From positions 1 to 42,224 of the IMG/VR virus record IMGVR_UViG_3300046096_000573: a stretch of DNA of 42,224 nucleotides. The stretch is one strand, 5' to 3'. This document shows, one piece after another, positions 460 through 41,874 of this stretch. Positions within the stretch are counted from its first letter, which is position 1; each line of letters begins with the position of its first letter. Below the pieces are notes generated by a model. The model made no database searches, had not been told where the DNA came from, and worked only from the letters and a program-made list of their open reading frames with translations. The DNA comes from a virus. The translations under genes and the position numbers were made by a program.

Positions 460-705
460 TTAGCTAATTCTTCCCGAGCGGGAAACTTTTGATAGGATAG
501 AGTAAGTCCCTGAGGTGACCAAACACGCCGCCCGAGCAAGTAAATACCCTAAAGTCCAGCACCCAAAGAAATATACTATGAAATGGAAAAGACTTGTTTT
601 AGACGCGCCGTCTAATATGCCTAACTCTATAATGGTAAAAAATAAACATCCATAGGTAGATAAACCGACTAGAACAGAAAAAATTAATCTATAATTATTC
701 GTCAT
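460..705 (-). CDS. Small membrane protein, 81 aa
   Basis: The ATG at 705 overlaps the last codons of the methyltransferase gene, so translation is probably coupled; a GTG one codon upstream is a less likely start. Two hydrophobic stretches (residues about 8-30 and 40-60, the second rich in aromatics and Gly) suggest two membrane segments, followed by a short basic tail ending in SRSGRIS. No family is recognised. The 3' end contains the palindrome TTCCCG-CT-CGGGAA (472-485), and a related CCCGCTCGG motif recurs about 48 nt downstream at 426-434, so this spot may also fold as RNA. A membrane-acting accessory role is possible but unproven. Confidence 0.6.
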   Translation of the reverse strand: MTNNYRLIFSVLVGLSTYGCLFFTIIELGILDGASKTSLFHFIVYFFGCWTLGYLLARAACLVTSGTYSILSKVSRSGRIS

Positions 706-1705
706 CACTAAAAAAATCCTCTTTTATTTTACAAGCAATATGTCGTCCCAAATTAACCGGAACGGCATTACCAATCATTTTATATTTTGCAGAAACAGAC
801 GTGCCGATAAATTTAAAATCATCCGGGAAAGATTGAAATCTTGCAATTTCTCTAACTGAATACCGCCTATGCTCACATGGATGTAAAATACCGGAGTTTT
901 CAGGAGTGGAAGCGGCGGTAATCGTTCCCATAATTTCATTTCTATCAAACCGTCTATAAAAATTCGGAGATCGATATTTTTGAATATTATCCCTAATTTT
1001 TTTTAAACGTTCGGGAAGCTCTTTATAAGGTACATTCTTCCACGATCCGCCTTCCGGAATATACTCGGCTAAAGATAAAGATTGCGGTGAAAGTTTCCAA
1101 ACTTCTTCCGCTTCGCCAAGCGGTCTTTCAGAAGCTAAAACAGCGCCTACCGTTAGGCTCGATTTATCTTTAATCGGCAAAGGAAAATTAAAAGGCTTTT
1201 TAATATCATCTCTTACGCCTATCATTATGACCCTGTACCTATTTTGCGGAACACCGTAATCTGCGGCATTCAAAAGTCTATAATATAAATTATAGCCATG
1301 TTTTTTTAAGTCATTTTCCAATCGTTGCGGCATAGAAATCCCTTTATCATCTTTAGATGAAAGAAAACCGCGAACATTTTCAAACAGAACTATCTTAGGC
1401 TTTTTAAGATCAATAATTTTAAGAACTTCCGTAAAAAGATTACCGCGACTATCTTGCATTGACCCTCTATTACCTGCATTAGAAAAGGGCTGACAAGGAA
1501 TCCCCGCAAGAACGACATCACAATCAGGTAGAGATTTTTTATCAACGGTACATATATCCTGAATATCAATTTTCCCTAGGTTATATTCATAAGTTTCACG
1601 CACAGAATCGGCTATATCATTCGCATAAACAATTTGAAATCCGGCTTTATGAAAACCTAAATCCAGACCGCCACAACCTGCAAAAAGAGAAATACAATTA
1701 ACCAT
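695..1705 (-). CDS. DNA (cytosine-5) methyltransferase
   Basis: Transfers a methyl group from S-adenosylmethionine to C5 of cytosine in DNA. All main C5-methylase motifs are present: motif I SLFAGCGGLDLGF (residues 6-18), motif IV GIPCQPFSNAG with catalytic Cys71, motif VI FENVRGF (about 108), motif VIII QNRYRVIMIGVR, motif IX RRYSVREIARFQSFPDDF and motif X MIGNAVPVNLG near the C-terminus. At 336 aa it has typical monospecific length, with a compact target-recognition region between VIII and IX. The ATG is at 1705 with GGAA upstream. No restriction enzyme gene is adjacent, so it is probably a solitary methylase that protects phage DNA from host restriction. The target site cannot be read from sequence. 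Confidence 0.95.
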   Translation of the reverse strand: MVNCISLFAGCGGLDLGFHKAGFQIVYANDIADSVRETYEYNLGKIDIQDICTVDKKSLPDCDVVLAGIPCQPFSNAGNRGSMQDSRGNLFTEVLKIIDLKKPKIVLFENVRGFLSSKDDKGISMPQRLENDLKKHGYNLYYRLLNAADYGVPQNRYRVIMIGVRDDIKKPFNFPLPIKDKSSLTVGAVLASERPLGEAEEVWKLSPQSLSLAEYIPEGGSWKNVPYKELPERLKKIRDNIQKYRSPNFYRRFDRNEIMGTITAASTPENSGILHPCEHRRYSVREIARFQSFPDDFKFIGTSVSAKYKMIGNAVPVNLGRHIACKIKEDFFSDDE

Positions 1706-8895: not shown

Positions 8896-11066
8896 TAGAA
8901 GCCCGAAGGTATCAATATTTCAGGGTCTTGACCGTGCATAGGCGAAAATTGCAAAAAACCTTGAATAATAAGAAAACTAATTAAATCACGCTCTTTTATA
9001 CGTCGGTTCATTAATACATAATCTTTTAATGTTGAGTAGGATATTATTGTGTCTTGTTGTGTACGCATTTTCTCACCAAGACCGCAAGCAAACGCGACTT
9101 CTTTATAAACTTCAGACTGCCACTCGTATAAAGCCATACAATAAGCTCTAGTTTCCGGTATTCGTGTGGTTATATACTCAAGATACTCGTCTCGGTTATT
9201 TTCGTAGTCGCGGGTATAGAAGTACAATAGCGTATTCATCGTATCTACAAAAGAATCCCCGGCAGTTTCTTTTATTAGCGACGAGAAAAAGGCTCGGATA
9301 CTTGATATTTCTAGGTCAGATTTACCTTGGCATTGATAACGGTCTGTTGGCGCGAAAACAGCGATACGGCGGTTTGTATTATCTAAATAGATGCCTTTAT
9401 AGTTATTTGCGGCAAAAAGCATAGCAAAACTGGCGCGGGTTTGTTGATCTTCTTTCCACTTACCGGTGGTTTCGATATACTCCCCGGTGATCCACTCTTT
9501 GAGTAAGCTATCGTCTTTAAACTCCGCTTCTTCGCACGATAGGAAAAGTTTATCCCGTAGATACATTGTGTAATTATCTTTAGTTACCCGGTTAGCGGTA
9601 ATATTACCGGTAAAATTTTTACCCCCGGTAAATTCCGTTATTATAGACGCTAATGTGGATTTACCGGTTCCGGACTTACCCACTAAGGAAACCGCCGTAC
9701 GCGGCTTAACCCCGCGCCTTAAACCGACAATACAAATTGTTAGCCAACGATGTAGCCACAGATACCCCTCTTCGTGGTCGCCTGATAAGTGCATTACGAA
9801 ATCCTGAAATTTACCCCAAAGTTTTTTTGCGGCGCGAATATCATCTATCTTCGGGGTATAAATACTTGGCGGTAGTATGTTATATGTGTTTATATCTTCT
9901 TGCCCGTCAAAAACAATACCGCGTTTCGTATAAACTTTTTGGAAACTTTTCGCGAAGTTAAAAAATTCATATTTCTTCTGCCCGGCGTAAATAGTTGTGT
10001 CCCCAAACATTTTCAATGGGTTATTTACGGGGGTTTCTATTATTTTATTATCCCGTTTATCATGGTATATATAACTTACACCGGCGGCTCCATTATCTAT
10101 AATTATAACTTTATTTACGAACTCTTGCAGTACATTTTCGTTAATATTAATATCAAACGTGTCACATAAAGAACCCTTACCCGCGTGATTTACAAACGTA
10201 ACCCCGTCTTTAATATGGTCTCTATCAATGAATGTGGGGCTTTGATTTCCTCGATTACCGGGCATCTTAGCAGGGTCTGGTATATGCGAATCCCACTGCT
10301 TCGTATTGGTTTCCCTATGGTCTTCTCGATCTCCGGCATCAGTCCAATCTAAAAACGGTTTTTTTAAATGTTCACCTGTCTCTTTAAACTTAAAAAGTAA
10401 TTTAACCCATTCCTCTCGGGTGTCTACGGGTTTTAACTTAGAAAAATCCTTACAAAGGTCTTTACTAAAATAATACTGCAAATCTCTTTGCGATAAAGTT
10501 TTTTCATGAGAAATTTCGTAAATTGCGTAAGGTTCCGCTTTATCAAATATTATATCCGATGCAAATCTTTTTACAAAGTCTTGTACTTCAACCACTATTT
10601 TAAAACCGGAGGTATCGTACACGCCGGCTAAAACCGTACCGGTTAATAATTCTATTCTAGTCGATAAAAAACAGGTTTTACTTAAATTAAGGGGTAATTT
10701 ATAGTCTAGATCATAATACAGGTGTAAACCGCCACGTTTTGAGAAACAAAAACGATTGGGGGTGGGTAATTGGCTTGCCGCACGCAGTATAAACGAGGTA
10801 TCATCCTCATCGCTATGATTTAGGTCAATATCAATCACCACCATGCGTCTTGGCAGTAGTCTTTTAACCGCGGTCTTTACAGCCCAGAAGGCTGAGTCAG
10901 TTCCGGCAAACGAAGCCTTTTCCTGATCAGTTAATTCAGGATTAAACAAAAATTTATCTGCGTGGTGAGATAGTTGAGCTGATCCGGTTAAATTAACACC
11001 TATAAAACAATATCCGCTAACCGGGTCTTTGTAGTTATGCGGTATTTTTTGGATAGTGTAACTCAA
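8895..11066 (-). CDS. Primase-polymerase / SF3 helicase
   Basis: A 723-residue fusion. The N-terminal archaeo-eukaryotic primase-like domain shows VVIDIDLNHSD (metal-binding DID, residues 79-81) and KRGGLHLYYDL with His115. The C-terminal ATPase (DUF5906-type superfamily 3 helicase) shows Walker A VGKSGTGKST (about 465), Walker B LFLSCEEAEF, and the sensor/arginine-finger region AANNYKGIYLDNTNRRIAVF. It should make primers and unwind DNA at the fork. The start is TTG at 11066 with GAAGG upstream, overlapping the end of the DHFR-deaminase gene by 32 nt. Confidence 0.92.
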   Translation of the reverse strand: MSYTIQKIPHNYKDPVSGYCFIGVNLTGSAQLSHHADKFLFNPELTDQEKASFAGTDSAFWAVKTAVKRLLPRRMVVIDIDLNHSDEDDTSFILRAASQLPTPNRFCFSKRGGLHLYYDLDYKLPLNLSKTCFLSTRIELLTGTVLAGVYDTSGFKIVVEVQDFVKRFASDIIFDKAEPYAIYEISHEKTLSQRDLQYYFSKDLCKDFSKLKPVDTREEWVKLLFKFKETGEHLKKPFLDWTDAGDREDHRETNTKQWDSHIPDPAKMPGNRGNQSPTFIDRDHIKDGVTFVNHAGKGSLCDTFDININENVLQEFVNKVIIIDNGAAGVSYIYHDKRDNKIIETPVNNPLKMFGDTTIYAGQKKYEFFNFAKSFQKVYTKRGIVFDGQEDINTYNILPPSIYTPKIDDIRAAKKLWGKFQDFVMHLSGDHEEGYLWLHRWLTICIVGLRRGVKPRTAVSLVGKSGTGKSTLASIITEFTGGKNFTGNITANRVTKDNYTMYLRDKLFLSCEEAEFKDDSLLKEWITGEYIETTGKWKEDQQTRASFAMLFAANNYKGIYLDNTNRRIAVFAPTDRYQCQGKSDLEISSIRAFFSSLIKETAGDSFVDTMNTLLYFYTRDYENNRDEYLEYITTRIPETRAYCMALYEWQSEVYKEVAFACGLGEKMRTQQDTIISYSTLKDYVLMNRRIKERDLISFLIIQGFLQFSPMHGQDPEILIPSGF

Positions 11067-11817
11067 TTAAGTTAATACCTTCTTGTTTCAAAAATATTTT
11101 AGCCCACGCTTGTTTAGACTTCCACATATCTGAGACTCCCATATTAGGCATATGGTGAACAGTTACGCTTTTTAACAACGGTAGCCGAGCTAATAACTTA
11201 GCGCAGGTATCGCAGGGTAGCGCGTTCATGTGTATATGCTCTACGTCCGGTTCAGCATCAAATAACATTTGCTCGGCGTGAATATCTTTGATCTTACATG
11301 ACGTATACACGCCTTGTAAAGTATTAATAATAACTTTAGTGTTCTCGGTATAATATTTTTTAAATTCAGGTTTTTTATAGTTTATAGTCGTAAACTCCGG
11401 GTGATAGATTAACTCATCACGAATATAGAACTCCGGGCTGAATGAGGGAAAATATGTATCCCCTATATAATCTCCTTTTATATGAGATATAAATATGTTA
11501 TCTACTTTTTCAATAAAATAATTATATACTAGTTGCCCGCCTGCAATCCATATATCGGTGTTATAAGTCTTAGCAATTTCTAATGCGGAGGTTATGTTAT
11601 CTACATAAGTATGCATTTCACCGGTGTCATTCTTGCGGCTAACTACAACCGCTTTTCGGTGTTGCACTTGTGTCGCAGTTTTACGACCTACGATGAGCAC
11701 ACCATGCTTCGTCATTCGATTGAAAAAAGCCAATTCTTCAGGGATGCGCCATGGTAGATCGCCTTGATTTCCGATAACACCGTTTGAAGCCACAGCGGCA
11801 ATTAAATTAATTTTCAT
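11035..11817 (-). CDS. Dihydrofolate reductase fused to a dCMP-deaminase-like domain
   Basis: A 260-residue bifunctional protein. Residues 1 to about 158 are a dihydrofolate reductase: MKINLIAAVASNGVIG, LPWRIPEELAFF with Glu28 at the usual catalytic Asp/Glu, VGRKT, and WIAGGQLVY for NADPH. The loop after VGRKT is shorter than in E. coli FolA. Residues about 165-260 carry the zinc deaminase signature, His180-Ala-Glu182 and Pro-Cys202-x-x-Cys205, with only a short N-terminal part of the fold. DHFR regenerates tetrahydrofolate and dCMP deaminase makes dUMP, both feeding thymidylate synthesis. The ATG at 11817 forms an ATGA overlap with the transporter stop; an upstream start at 11832 is less likely. 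Confidence 0.92.
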   Translation of the reverse strand: MKINLIAAVASNGVIGNQGDLPWRIPEELAFFNRMTKHGVLIVGRKTATQVQHRKAVVVSRKNDTGEMHTYVDNITSALEIAKTYNTDIWIAGGQLVYNYFIEKVDNIFISHIKGDYIGDTYFPSFSPEFYIRDELIYHPEFTTINYKKPEFKKYYTENTKVIINTLQGVYTSCKIKDIHAEQMLFDAEPDVEHIHMNALPCDTCAKLLARLPLLKSVTVHHMPNMGVSDMWKSKQAWAKIFLKQEGINLIELHYPKNTA

Positions 11818-12065
11818 TTTGAAATTTTCCAAAGGATAAATATTAAAACAGATAATGTTATAGTATTTGCAATTATAACCGGGTACAAAGTGTTTAACAC
11901 CCCGTATAGCAACCAGAAATAAACCCCTAGAATAAGTAAAACATATGTATGCTTAGATAAGGCGGCGGTGTCTATGTCACCTTTATATATCTTATAGGCT
12001 TGAGGCAAATTAGCCACGGTTGTTAAAACCGTAGCTATATAACCTATTATGTCTGTGTGTGTCAA
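11814..12065 (-). CDS. SemiSWEET-type (PQ-loop) small transporter
   Basis: An 83-residue three-helix membrane protein of the MtN3/SemiSWEET family, whose bacterial members dimerise to move sugars down their gradient. Key signs are ANLPQAYKIYK in helix 1 (PQ motif), GVYFWLLYGV in helix 2, and PVIIANTITLSVLIF in helix 3, with the binding-site Asn. Length and start fit the family when the TTG at 12065 is used: AAGGAG (12076-12081) is ideally placed, while upstream in-frame ATGs would add an N-terminus lacking in the family. It overlaps the DHFR-deaminase gene as ATGA, so it is expressed with nucleotide genes. The substrate cannot be predicted. Transporters of this kind are rare in phages, to my knowledge. 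Confidence 0.88.
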   Translation of the reverse strand: MTHTDIIGYIATVLTTVANLPQAYKIYKGDIDTAALSKHTYVLLILGVYFWLLYGVLNTLYPVIIANTITLSVLIFILWKISK

Positions 12066-12066
12066 A

Positions 12067-12369
12067 TTATATATACTCCTTAATGTCGAATTGTAAATTC
12101 TTACCGAATAATTTAGTAAACTCCTGATCTTTATCAAAAATAACTTTACCGGTGTCCAGTACTGTAACCGAGTATCTTAATCTTGGGTTGACAACAGATA
12201 TAGTAAAGCCCTCTGATACCTCAGCAATTTTAATTATTTGCGGGTTACATATCCTAGAAAAAAAATTTAGTGACGTTTCTTGGTATCTACGTCTTTTGAC
12301 GAGTATATGTTTCAAAATTTTTAATATTAATTTTTTTGTAGGTTTTGGGGTTTCAACCGTAGAAATCAT
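12067..12369 (-). CDS. Hypothetical basic protein, 100 aa
   Basis: Not recognised. The N-terminal 35 residues are strongly basic and helical (TKKLILKILKHILVKRRRY), then a beta-rich region follows (GFTISVVNPRLRYSVTVLD). The ATG at 12369 overlaps the preceding stop as ATGA, and its own stop is followed after one base by the TTG of the SemiSWEET gene, so three small genes form one tightly coupled unit. The basic helix might bind nucleic acid or lie on a membrane. No function can be assigned. Confidence 0.55.
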   Translation of the reverse strand: MISTVETPKPTKKLILKILKHILVKRRRYQETSLNFFSRICNPQIIKIAEVSEGFTISVVNPRLRYSVTVLDTGKVIFDKDQEFTKLFGKNLQFDIKEYI

Positions 12370-12647: not shown

Positions 12648-13424
12648 CTATAAAAATAATTCCGGTTTCGGGTTGTAATGGTGTTTATGGTAGTCGGTAG
12701 TTTGATACGCTTTCGCCTCATCTATGGACAAATCTATAGGGAAGCAGTAATCGCCGGAACCGAACGTAACCATAGGTATATGTTTTTCGTACAAATGGGT
12801 ATGTGATGTGGTTATTGATAAAACGCCTAATTGTAGCAAAGGGTCTATTTCTTGGCGAAATTTTTCTAATAGAACCGAATAAGTCATAATGTCATAGGGC
12901 AAACCAATAAACACATCAGAAGACCTAATGAATACACTCATATATATCTTATTTTTCACAATATATAAGTGGCAGAAAGCGGGACACGGAATGTTTTTAG
13001 GTTGGTTGCCCCCTAACCCATCTTCACCCGGGTGCCATGCGGATATACATATTTGACGATTTGACGGATCGTCTTGTAAAGCTTTTATCGCTAAAGCTAT
13101 TTGATCACGCCCGAATGCGTGCCGCCAACGGTATCCATAGGCGGCTTTAATTTCGCCGTCTTCGATAAAATCACCCCAAACTTTCGGATAATGAGCCATC
13201 ATCAAAGCCGGGTCTTTGGTGCCTAACCACTGCCACTCCGCCTCTACGATAGCGATAGCCGGAAAATATCGTCTATTATTAGGCACCGGTATGGCGCGGT
13301 TCGATAGGTCATAGGTTAAATGCTTAGGGGTAGGGCTTATTAATAAGTACTCCCCTGTGCGTTTGTTTAACTCCCTAATACCTGTATTTTTTATTTCATT
13401 TAATAGTTGGTTATAGGTTTCCAA
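12648..13424 (-). CDS. Thymidylate synthase / dCMP (hydroxy)methylase family enzyme
   Basis: A 258-residue thymidylate synthase family protein that uses methylenetetrahydrofolate to modify C5 of a pyrimidine deoxynucleotide. Conserved parts are KRTGEYL (phosphate loop), AAYGYRWR, SNRQICISAW, the catalytic Cys147 in IPCPAFC, FIRSSDVFIGLPYDI and HTHLY (His210, Tyr212). The residue aligned with E. coli TS Asn177, which selects dUMP, is Asp178; Asp at this place is the mark of dCMP-specific enzymes such as T4 dCMP hydroxymethylase. The usual His after the catalytic Cys is Pro148. The start is TTG at 13424 behind AGGA, inside the end of the upstream gene. The product could be TMP, methyl-dCMP or hydroxymethyl-dCMP; sequence favours a dCMP substrate. 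Confidence 0.85.
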   Translation of the reverse strand: METYNQLLNEIKNTGIRELNKRTGEYLLISPTPKHLTYDLSNRAIPVPNNRRYFPAIAIVEAEWQWLGTKDPALMMAHYPKVWGDFIEDGEIKAAYGYRWRHAFGRDQIALAIKALQDDPSNRQICISAWHPGEDGLGGNQPKNIPCPAFCHLYIVKNKIYMSVFIRSSDVFIGLPYDIMTYSVLLEKFRQEIDPLLQLGVLSITTSHTHLYEKHIPMVTFGSGDYCFPIDLSIDEAKAYQTTDYHKHHYNPKPELFL

Positions 13425-13716: not shown

Positions 13717-15405
13717 TTATGTGTCACAACTTCTTTGACCGGTTTCCGGGTCGTATTTACATTCAGCGGCGGTATCCTGTTCTTTATCCACTAGTATACC
13801 CATGCGTTTTCCCGTCGAGTTAAAGGTTGTGCAACCCTTAGCGCCACCATAATACGCTTTCAAGTAAATATTCTTAAAGTCATCAAAAGACATTTTAGTG
13901 CCGTCCATATTGATAGTCTTTGAGATTGAGCTATCAACATAATATTGGCAAAGGTTAAGCACCCCAATATGTTCGTCAACCGTGCAGTCAGCGGCTTTTT
14001 TACCTTTGAAACCATGTACCCGATACATATAGTCTGAAACGTCAACCTCTTGTTGTTTATTTTGAAAAAACATTTTTCTTTTAACTTCATGAGCAAACAC
14101 CGGTTCAATACCGCTAGATATGTTTCCTGCGGTTGACGAGATCGTACCTGTCGGGGCAATTGATGTCAAATGAGAATTACGGATACCATGTTCCGATATA
14201 TGCTCTCTAACATCATCATCAAGATGCTTAATAAAATTACCGTTCAAATATTTTTCTTTATCAAATAGGGGGAAAGAACCTTTTTCCTTAGCTAATTTAG
14301 ATGACGCAAGAAACGCGCCGTTTGTAAGGGCGTGCATGATTTTTTCTAACGCAGATAAAAAAACTTTATCACCATACATACAATCGTGCATATACTCAAT
14401 CGCGTTAGCCACGCCGGTTAAACCCAAGCCCATGCGTCTTTTTTGTTCCGCTTCATGCTTTTGTTCCGGTAGTGGGAATTTTGAAACGTCAATAACCATA
14501 TCCATCGCGCGGACAATATATGGAATGTCCGATTTTAAAGCTTTCAAATAGTCAATACCGTAAGTCTCAACATAGCGTACCAAGTTGAAACTCCCAAGTA
14601 AACAAGCGCCATTGGGTGGTAGCCCTTGTTCACCGCAGGGATTAGTAGCGGCGATAGTTTCACAATAATATAGGGGGTTATAATCGTTAATCCGATCTAT
14701 AAAAAGAACACCCGGCTCCGCCCAGTCGAATGTGGACTCCATGATTTTATTCCAGAGGTACGCCGCCTTTACCGTACTATAAACAACCCCGTCAAAAACT
14801 AAATCAAAATCACCATCGGATTTTAACGCCTTCATGAATTTATCAGTTACAGCGACGGATACATTAAAATTAGTCAACACCCCCGGTTGTCTTTTAGCAT
14901 CAATAAATTCTTCTATATCGGGGTGATCTATGCGGAGTACACCCATTTGAGCGCCGCGACGATGTCCTGATGATCTAATGGTTGCACATATAGCGTCAAA
15001 TATATTCATAAAAGACACCGCACCCGATGAGTGCGAGTTAAGTTTTTTAATCAAAGCATTTTTAGGGCGTAAAGTTGAAAAGTCATAACCGATACCACCA
15101 CCCGAACGTAAAGTCATGATCGCCTTTGTCGCAACGTCCATGATTGAGTTTTCCGGGCAGTCCGCGCCGTTCACCGTACTATCAATAATACTGGGAGATA
15201 CAAAACAATTAAACGCTGTGACTTCTTTAGAAGCTCCGATTGCCGCTTGAATACGCCCTGCCGGCAGGAAAAAACGTTCTTTAAGCAAATAATTAAACTT
15301 TTCACAACCGCCTAAACCGTTACTGATACGGTCGCAAGCTTGGGAGAAGCTTTCCCCCTCCGCACGGTATTTTTCCGCGTGCAGATTATCAAAATAATCA
15401 AACAT
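13717..15405 (-). CDS. nrdJ: Ribonucleotide reductase, class II (adenosylcobalamin-dependent)
   Basis: A 562-residue enzyme that converts ribonucleotides to deoxyribonucleotides. It has the 10-stranded barrel signatures: FLPAGRIQAAIG, FNCFV (first redox Cys), SGGGIGYDFS, SGHRRGAQMGVL, the NPCGEQ motif with catalytic Asn, thiyl-radical Cys and Glu, and NGACLLGSFNL (second redox Cys). The C-terminal tail ends CKYDPETGQRSCDT, giving a Cys pair for re-reduction. No N-terminal ATP cone is present and no small subunit gene is nearby, which with the motif pattern supports the B12-dependent class. It supplies dNTP precursors for replication. The ATG is at 15405. I see no cobalamin riboswitch upstream. 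Confidence 0.92.
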   Translation of the reverse strand: MFDYFDNLHAEKYRAEGESFSQACDRISNGLGGCEKFNYLLKERFFLPAGRIQAAIGASKEVTAFNCFVSPSIIDSTVNGADCPENSIMDVATKAIMTLRSGGGIGYDFSTLRPKNALIKKLNSHSSGAVSFMNIFDAICATIRSSGHRRGAQMGVLRIDHPDIEEFIDAKRQPGVLTNFNVSVAVTDKFMKALKSDGDFDLVFDGVVYSTVKAAYLWNKIMESTFDWAEPGVLFIDRINDYNPLYYCETIAATNPCGEQGLPPNGACLLGSFNLVRYVETYGIDYLKALKSDIPYIVRAMDMVIDVSKFPLPEQKHEAEQKRRMGLGLTGVANAIEYMHDCMYGDKVFLSALEKIMHALTNGAFLASSKLAKEKGSFPLFDKEKYLNGNFIKHLDDDVREHISEHGIRNSHLTSIAPTGTISSTAGNISSGIEPVFAHEVKRKMFFQNKQQEVDVSDYMYRVHGFKGKKAADCTVDEHIGVLNLCQYYVDSSISKTINMDGTKMSFDDFKNIYLKAYYGGAKGCTTFNSTGKRMGILVDKEQDTAAECKYDPETGQRSCDT

Positions 15406-41192: not shown

Positions 41193-41633
41193 CTAAGCTA
41201 GAGTGCCCGAGCTACCGAATCCGGAACTACCACGTTCAGTATAGTGTTTATTACGCTCGTAAGACCTCCGAATAGTATATGATGGTACATGAGCTATAAC
41301 CGCTTGAGCGATACGCTCATACGGTTCGACAATATATACTTCTTTTGATAAATTAAATAAACAAACTTTTATTTCCCCGCGATAATCAAAATCAACAGTG
41401 CCTAAAAAAGTGGTAATCCCCTTATTGAACAACAATCCTGACCGGGGTCGTATTTGTAATTCTAAATTTGGTCTACGAAACCTCGAAACTTCAATACCGG
41501 TAGGTATACTTACGCTACTCCCCGGTAGTAGCTCATGTTTTTCAGGTATCCTAGCGTGAAGGTCGAAACCGGAAGCATATTCCGACCCTCTAAACGGGGC
41601 GCATTTTTCATCTAATAAATAATATTCAAACAT
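41193..41633 (-). CDS. dut: Trimeric dUTPase
   Basis: A 146-residue dUTP diphosphatase: dUTP to dUMP and pyrophosphate. The five motifs are visible: SGFDLHA (1), RPRSGLLF (2), GTVDFDYRGEIKV with catalytic Asp (3), ERIAQAVI (4) and ERGSSGFGSSG (5, Gly-rich arm). It keeps uracil out of DNA and makes dUMP. The ATG at 41633 overlaps the DUF6378-like gene. The TAG stop is followed in the same frame by an 81-codon open stretch, discussed separately. Confidence 0.95.
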   Translation of the reverse strand: MFEYYLLDEKCAPFRGSEYASGFDLHARIPEKHELLPGSSVSIPTGIEVSRFRRPNLELQIRPRSGLLFNKGITTFLGTVDFDYRGEIKVCLFNLSKEVYIVEPYERIAQAVIAHVPSYTIRRSYERNKHYTERGSSGFGSSGTLA

Positions 41634-41874
41634 TGTATTTATCGGCTAAAACGGCGTAACCTACAAGATCGCGTAAACTGTCTTCGTGATCGGGGTTAGC
41701 CGATAACCTTGCCATCTTCAAATCCATCATCAATAAAGCGACTATTTTAGGTGTTATTTTGGCGCCTAAAATTTGCGACCAACGGACTGCGATACGCTCC
41801 GGAATATCGTCTTTGCCGTATTCTTCGTAGCGTTGCGTTAATATATCGTCAACCGCTTTCAAAAAATTATTCAT
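41626..41874 (-). CDS. DUF6378-like phage protein, 82 aa
   Basis: A small helical protein matching the DUF6378 pattern common in phages: YEEYGKDDIPERIAVRWSQI, then LGAKITPKIVALLMMDLKMA and NPDHEDSLRDLVGYAVLAD. Such proteins show some likeness to MazG-type nucleotide pyrophosphohydrolases and are usually near nucleotide genes, as here next to dUTPase. The exact reaction is not established. The ATG at 41874 follows a short gap, and the stop overlaps the dUTPase start. Confidence 0.8.
   Translation of the reverse strand: MNNFLKAVDDILTQRYEEYGKDDIPERIAVRWSQILGAKITPKIVALLMMDLKMARLSANPDHEDSLRDLVGYAVLADKYNV

Follow-up and report, generated by a model that had tools for sequence, protein, structure and literature searches.

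The viral contig IMGVR_UViG_3300046096_000573, a partial contig from a virus record that was analysed over all of its 42,224 nucleotides (hereafter the window), encodes a thymidylate synthase (TS) family protein that is, judging from its sequence, quite likely a dCMP C5-methyltransferase of the Xp12-like kind, with part of its 5-methyl-dCMP probably being deaminated. Residues, phylogeny and cassette context give good support to an enzyme of the dCMP type; most likely it converts dCMP to 5-methyl-dCMP and not to 5-hydroxymethyl-dCMP. The preliminary description had proposed an enzyme acting on dCMP and left both products side by side; the first part was strengthened, and of the two products the methyl form is favoured through the genus of Xp12. 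The 5-methyl-dCMP would probably serve as a precursor of methylated DNA, as a detour to thymidine, or as both.

The class to which the protein belongs, marked by Pro147 and Asp177 in E. coli numbering (Pro/Asp), was already indicated by MetaGPA (PMC8670742) and by the biochemistry of Xanthomonas phage Xp12, and the window TS is a genuine and clearly marked addition to it. Taken alone it is moderately interesting; the two-output pathway and the lead to CPR bacteria weigh more. Members of this large and cleanly separated phage class, many of them annotated as 'thymidylate synthases', are probably dCMP methylases, and the class predicts which phages escape restriction through methylated DNA. It also offers a proposed gene behind the Xp12-type 5-methylcytosine, the genetic mechanism of which was called unknown by the authors of the study on Stenotrophomonas phage AXL1 (PMC9206674).

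Key residues and fold

The reading frame of the window TS is complete (Table 1). Its start codon is TTG, preceded at seven bases by AGGA, and the frame overlaps with the end of the ORF before it. It was matched by PF00303 in the Pfam profile search (E=5.8e-36; 124.4 bits against a curated cut-off of 24.3) and by PHROG 160 (E=1.4e-44). The AlphaFold2 model, built with 29 natural relatives, had a pLDDT of 88 and a pTM of 0.88, and its top PDB matches in Foldseek were all TS (best E 6.8e-20). The fold, the catalytic Cys, the dimer Arg and other substrate-binding residues are shared with canonical ThyA, the positions kept being Arg21, Glu58, Trp80, Tyr94, Arg126, Arg166, Ser167, Asp169, His207 and Tyr209. 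In contrast to ThyA, which uses dUMP and has His147 and Asn177 as its signature, the window protein carries Cys147-Pro148 where E. coli ThyA has Cys146-His147, and Asp178 at the position of E. coli Asn177. Both replacements had been proposed before and were borne out by the alignments. The C-terminal tail KAPVAI, which closes the E. coli active site, is not conserved.

Table 1. Features of the window discussed in the text, with positions counted from its first nucleotide
Feature	Position	Strand	Basis and remarks
DNA cytosine-C5 methyltransferase	695..1705	-	Profiles; nearest solved structures M.HaeIII and M.HhaI
DHFR (residues 8-137) fused to a C-terminal zinc-deaminase-like domain	11035..11832	-	PF00186, 5.4e-30; HAE185, PC..C206-210, W237
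Trp237 of the deaminase-like domain	11122..11124	-	Aligns with Trp128 of the Xp12 deaminase
Zinc motifs HAE and PCDTC of the deaminase-like domain	11203..11280	-	Sequence and profile match
Probable dCMP C5-methyltransferase (TS family, Pro147/Asp177 class)	12648..13424	-	258 aa; profiles, alignments, tree, model
Codon of Asp178 (E. coli Asn177, pyrimidine-selecting position)	12891..12893	-	Sequence and alignments
Codons of catalytic Cys147 and Pro148	12981..12986	-	Cys147 12984-12986; Pro148 12981-12983
B12-dependent ribonucleotide reductase NrdJ	13717..15405	-	TIGR02504, 3e-140; upstream of the TS gene
dUTPase	41193..41633	-	Profile matches; 28 kb from the TS gene

Residues 147 and 177 were compared in 103 homologues from named phages, IMG/VR contigs, genome contigs and CPR genomes. 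Pro/Asp was found in 56 sequences, His/Asn in 40, Thr/Asp in three, Asn/Asn in two, and Val/Asn and His/Asp in one each. All 56 sequences with Pro147, from phages and CPR bacteria alike, had Asp177, and all 56 Pro/Asp sequences had Phe at position 83. Because of this co-occurrence, and because Cys147, Pro148 and Asp178 were invariant among the 29 aligned relatives at a mean column identity of 39%, the pairing is not due to chance. The Thr/Asp rows were dCMP hydroxymethylases of the T4 gp42 type, and the Asn/Asn rows came from the Yuavirus/Abidjanvirus group with its dUMP hydroxymethylase type (annotated in phage Lydia as deoxyuridylate hydroxymethyltransferase). When 433 TS proteins were compared in MetaGPA, positions 177 and 147 took the first two ranks by their association with cytosine-modified DNA, and the modified contigs mostly had Asp at position 177 (PMC8670742). 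The Asn-to-Asp exchange confers dCMP activity on the TS of E. coli and of L. casei according to the studies as cited there (PMC8670742), in agreement with the L. casei precedent invoked in the preliminary description.

It is improbable that the window protein is an ordinary dUMP-dependent TS with Asp and Pro as neutral replacements. The coupling of Asp177 with Pro147 is without exception in the 56 phage and CPR sequences, Asp disfavours dUMP according to the mutational literature, and the window TS scored below the cut-offs of all NCBIfam thymidylate synthase equivalogs (for TIGR03284, 64.8 bits against 108.35). What speaks for such an enzyme is the presence of DHFR, deaminase and dUTPase, the usual partners of TMP synthesis, together with the only His/Asp row, Td of the T4-like phage VR7 (L057:1001-1861), which has Asp177 in an otherwise ordinary TS sequence, unlike T4 Td (1tis) with its Asn. 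The dUTPase and the deaminase had been regarded earlier as fitting ordinary TMP synthesis, with the dUTPase as a neighbour of the TS gene; the dUTPase gene actually lies 28 kb away, and as the Xp12 deaminase yields dTTP from 5-methyl-dCTP the pair is a weak sign.

Two single residues were also considered as markers and rejected. Asp177 by itself is no proof of dCMP specificity, since VR7 Td combines it with His147, and Trp80 does not discriminate methylases from hydroxymethylases, since it is shared by T4 gp42.

Phylogenetic position

A phylogeny among TS, dCMP hydroxymethylases and dCMP methylases, which had been suggested as a check, was obtained by maximum likelihood from 57 sequences and placed the window TS in a Pro/Asp phage clade, apart from gp42 and ordinary TS. 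It sits in a set of 15 RDJL-type rows (support 100/99), its long branch leaving the exact place within these 15 rows unsure. This set is nested in a phage clade of 34 rows (97/89), all 34 of which are Pro/Asp, and outside that clade fall the T4 gp42 types, the dUMP hydroxymethylase types, ordinary TS and the CPR Pro/Asp proteins. The clade includes AXL1, a member of Bosavirus as is Xp12; as the sequence of Xp12 itself was absent from the collections searched, AXL1 gp63 was used as a sequence proxy for the Xp12 TS. Single-sequence searches of viral and genome contigs revealed no close relatives of the window TS, and homologues were found with an alignment query.

The nearest relatives are the roseophages RDJL Phi 1, RDJL3 and their kin (Xiamenvirus and relatives), with identical key residues and 44-45% identity; identity was 35% to AXL1 and 19% to T4 gp42. 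The latter shares with the window TS the family and, as had been stated in the preliminary description and was confirmed by alignment, Asp at the selecting position. It differs in having Thr after the catalytic Cys and 5-hydroxymethyl-dCMP as its product, and the gp42 types form a separate branch (100/99).

A hydroxymethylase of the T4 type, where the exocyclic methylene is attacked by water and not by hydride to give 5-hydroxymethyl-dCMP, has the shared Asp in its favour, and as the E. coli-type closing tail is missing, hydroxymethylation is still conceivable. A tail of like kind is present in AXL1, from the genus of Xp12, however, and the T4 types make up a distant clade with Thr instead of Pro. 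The linked DHFR suits a reaction that produces dihydrofolate, and the scan of ORFs showed neither a glycosyltransferase nor a carbamoyltransferase. This reading is considered improbable. Methylation is favoured for two reasons: 5-methylcytosine is what the DNA of the only chemically characterised relatives, those of the Xp12 genus, contains, and the ORF scan showed no gene for decorating hydroxymethylcytosine.

Apart from the window, TS of Microbacterium phage Eleri (L059:971-1735) showed Thr/Asp as in T4 gp42, with a glycosyltransferase gene close by. Glycosylated hydroxymethylcytosine is possible, from these genes, in this actinophage group.

Proposed reaction and the neighbouring genes

From the sequence, the residues, the fold, the clade and the gene neighbourhood of the window TS, we infer its substrate, its product and the fate of the product as follows. 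Asp178 in place of Asn would allow the proper seating of cytosine instead of uracil, and Pro148 would take the place of His147, the residue with which ordinary TS makes a water-mediated contact to O4 of uracil. Cys147 would attack C6, and the one-carbon unit and the hydride would come from methylene-tetrahydrofolate, so that dCMP and methylene-tetrahydrofolate would be turned into 5-methyl-dCMP and dihydrofolate. The dihydrofolate would be recycled by the DHFR half of ORF 11035-11832. The 5-methyl-dCMP would pass through 5-methyl-dCTP into DNA, and part of it would probably reach the dTMP/dTTP pool via the other, deaminase-like half of this ORF, which may convert methylated cytosine nucleotides to thymidine nucleotides.

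This ORF lies three small ORFs downstream of the TS gene. DHFR and deaminase had been described as two neighbours of the TS gene; the linkage stands, and the two turned out to be a single fused ORF instead of separate genes. The expectation that a nearby DHFR would suit a folate-consuming methylase agrees with a linked DHFR and a reaction that yields dihydrofolate. The deaminase-like domain forms the C-terminal third of the fusion and is short at its N-terminus. A profile built from the cassette deaminases matched this domain (E=9.5e-5) and nothing else in the window significantly, and the deaminase half alone gave no deaminase match in the Pfam (E up to 1) or PHROG scans. A single-sequence AlphaFold2 model of the ORF was poor (pLDDT 40) and supports nothing. 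The deaminase of Xp12 converts 5-methyl-dCTP to dTTP (Wang and Ehrlich 1982; Kuo et al. 1982, both as cited in PMC12088426), and an aromatic contact near the 5-methyl group was proposed for its Trp128 (PMC12088426). Trp is also found at position 128 of the AXL1 deaminase and is kept in 32 of 35 cassette deaminases.

Several minor observations were made on these genes. The fusion had no close relative in viral contigs in a single-sequence search. A small PQ-loop repeat membrane protein is encoded between the TS and DHFR-deaminase genes (11814-12137, minus strand), which is odd in a cluster for nucleotide metabolism. The dUTPase gene is overlapped by that of a DUF6378 protein of 82 residues (41626-41874, minus strand); the PHROG label of this family, 'phosphofructokinase', looks doubtful at such a length.

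Cytosine modification in relatives and possibly in the phage

The DNA of Xp12 has all of its cytosine replaced by 5-methylcytosine (100% by LC-MS; PMC7653180), and that of AXL1 was cut by only five of the 31 restriction enzymes tested, mainly those with A/T-only sites (PMC9206674). In MetaGPA, TS co-occurred with PRA-PH and deaminase domains, often in modified contigs only (PMC8670742). The gene cluster of the Pro/Asp phages is of this cassette type: a deaminase was found in 34 and PRA-PH in 32 of 35 records, and in the annotated loci a pyrophosphohydrolase or 'Cof hydrolase' gene adjoins those for TS, deaminase and DHFR, the last missing in JWX. The 5-methylcytosine of Xp12 may be tied to the Pro/Asp TS family by this cassette and the residues; no assayed enzyme of the class was found in the literature consulted. 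Nor was a report found there on the DNA chemistry of RDJL-type phages; a paper on Rhodobacter phages had nothing on modified DNA.

With the Xp12 type, for which AXL1 gp63 stood as proxy, the window shares a Pro147/Asp177 TS of one clade and a linked DHFR, and it has a linked deaminase-like domain with the Trp. The two differ in that the DHFR and the deaminase are fused and in opposite order in the window, and in the ribonucleotide reductase, which is B12-dependent in the window and class I in the Xp12 type. The RDJL types have the PRA-PH/TS/deaminase/DHFR cassette, with deaminase and DHFR as separate genes, and a ribonucleotide reductase in the corresponding region (B12-dependent by annotation in RDJL3). 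Neither PRA-PH, which the Xp12 type has, nor a nucleotide kinase was found on the window contig, which is partial; PRA-PH/MazG in the cassette is a habit of the group and not a catalytic requirement. As no terminase or portal gene was seen in its 42,224 bases either, partner genes may lie outside the contig.

The window differs further from the Xp12 type in its additional DNA C5-methyltransferase, for which a search of 37 other phage records, including 35 from Pro/Asp phages, found no counterpart. Such an enzyme would have no substrate if all cytosine were methylated beforehand, and its gene therefore argues against complete replacement of cytosine. Modification of cytosine in this phage's DNA is put in doubt by its own C5-methyltransferase. 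The cytosine may be replaced in part, the methyltransferase gene may be a leftover, or the TS may serve chiefly to supply thymidylate.

The last of these could be taken further, in that the enzyme would act in thymidylate synthesis only, nearly all 5-methyl-dCMP being deaminated to dTMP/dTTP and the virion cytosine remaining ordinary. The enzyme activity would be identical to that proposed here and only the fate of the product would differ. The conversion known from Xp12, the fused deaminase-like domain with its zinc motifs and Trp kept, and a C5-methyltransferase that is sensible only on unmodified cytosine are in line with it, as are the CPR bacteria described below, which imply a supply of thymidylate by this type of TS. 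However, the characterised relative Xp12 does both and has 100% 5-methylcytosine, the activity of the N-terminally short domain is uncertain, and the C5-methyltransferase could be a recent or unrelated acquisition. This alternative is considered rather unlikely, and a dCMP methylase that feeds both DNA and, in part, the thymidine pool is preferred.

Pro/Asp thymidylate synthases in CPR bacteria

The Pro/Asp pair also marks a CPR group whose sole TS is of this class, where a methylate-first route in cells is directly testable. The 22 CPR genomes with Pro/Asp TS, from Uhrbacteria and class relatives, comprise nine MAGs (L041-L049) and 13 class genomes (L092-L105 without L097). The nine MAGs are mostly titled Candidatus Uhrbacteria; the Pro/Asp protein is the sole TS in eight of them, and the ninth has a second, partial match. 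A TS was present in 77 of 144 genomes sampled from the class of one of these MAGs, and among the 46 TS-bearing genomes examined 33 were His/Asn and 13 Pro/Asp, none being mixed. No ThyX was found in the nine MAGs or in the 13 class genomes, and no PF00265 thymidine kinase in nine of the 22, absences that are to be read for MAGs, which are incomplete.

As a hypothesis, this gene content points to cells that make thymidylate by a methylate-first route, one reported so far for Xp12 infection. As a tentative proposal, which we hold to be less probable than its opposite, Pro/Asp TS and deaminase could form a second thymidylate route (dCMP to 5-methyl-dCMP to dTMP/dTTP), used by this phage, whose cytosine would be ordinary or only partly methylated, and by CPR bacteria without another TS. 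In genome L045 the genes for TS, DHFR and deaminase follow in that order with overlapping ends, and dUTPase- and dCTP-deaminase-like genes, recognised by eye from the translations, lie nearby and would also fit dUMP-based synthesis. Most other Pro/Asp CPR genomes have a divergent deaminase downstream of TS on the same strand; the His/Asn genomes of the class mostly have high-scoring deaminases, several of them directly upstream of TS.
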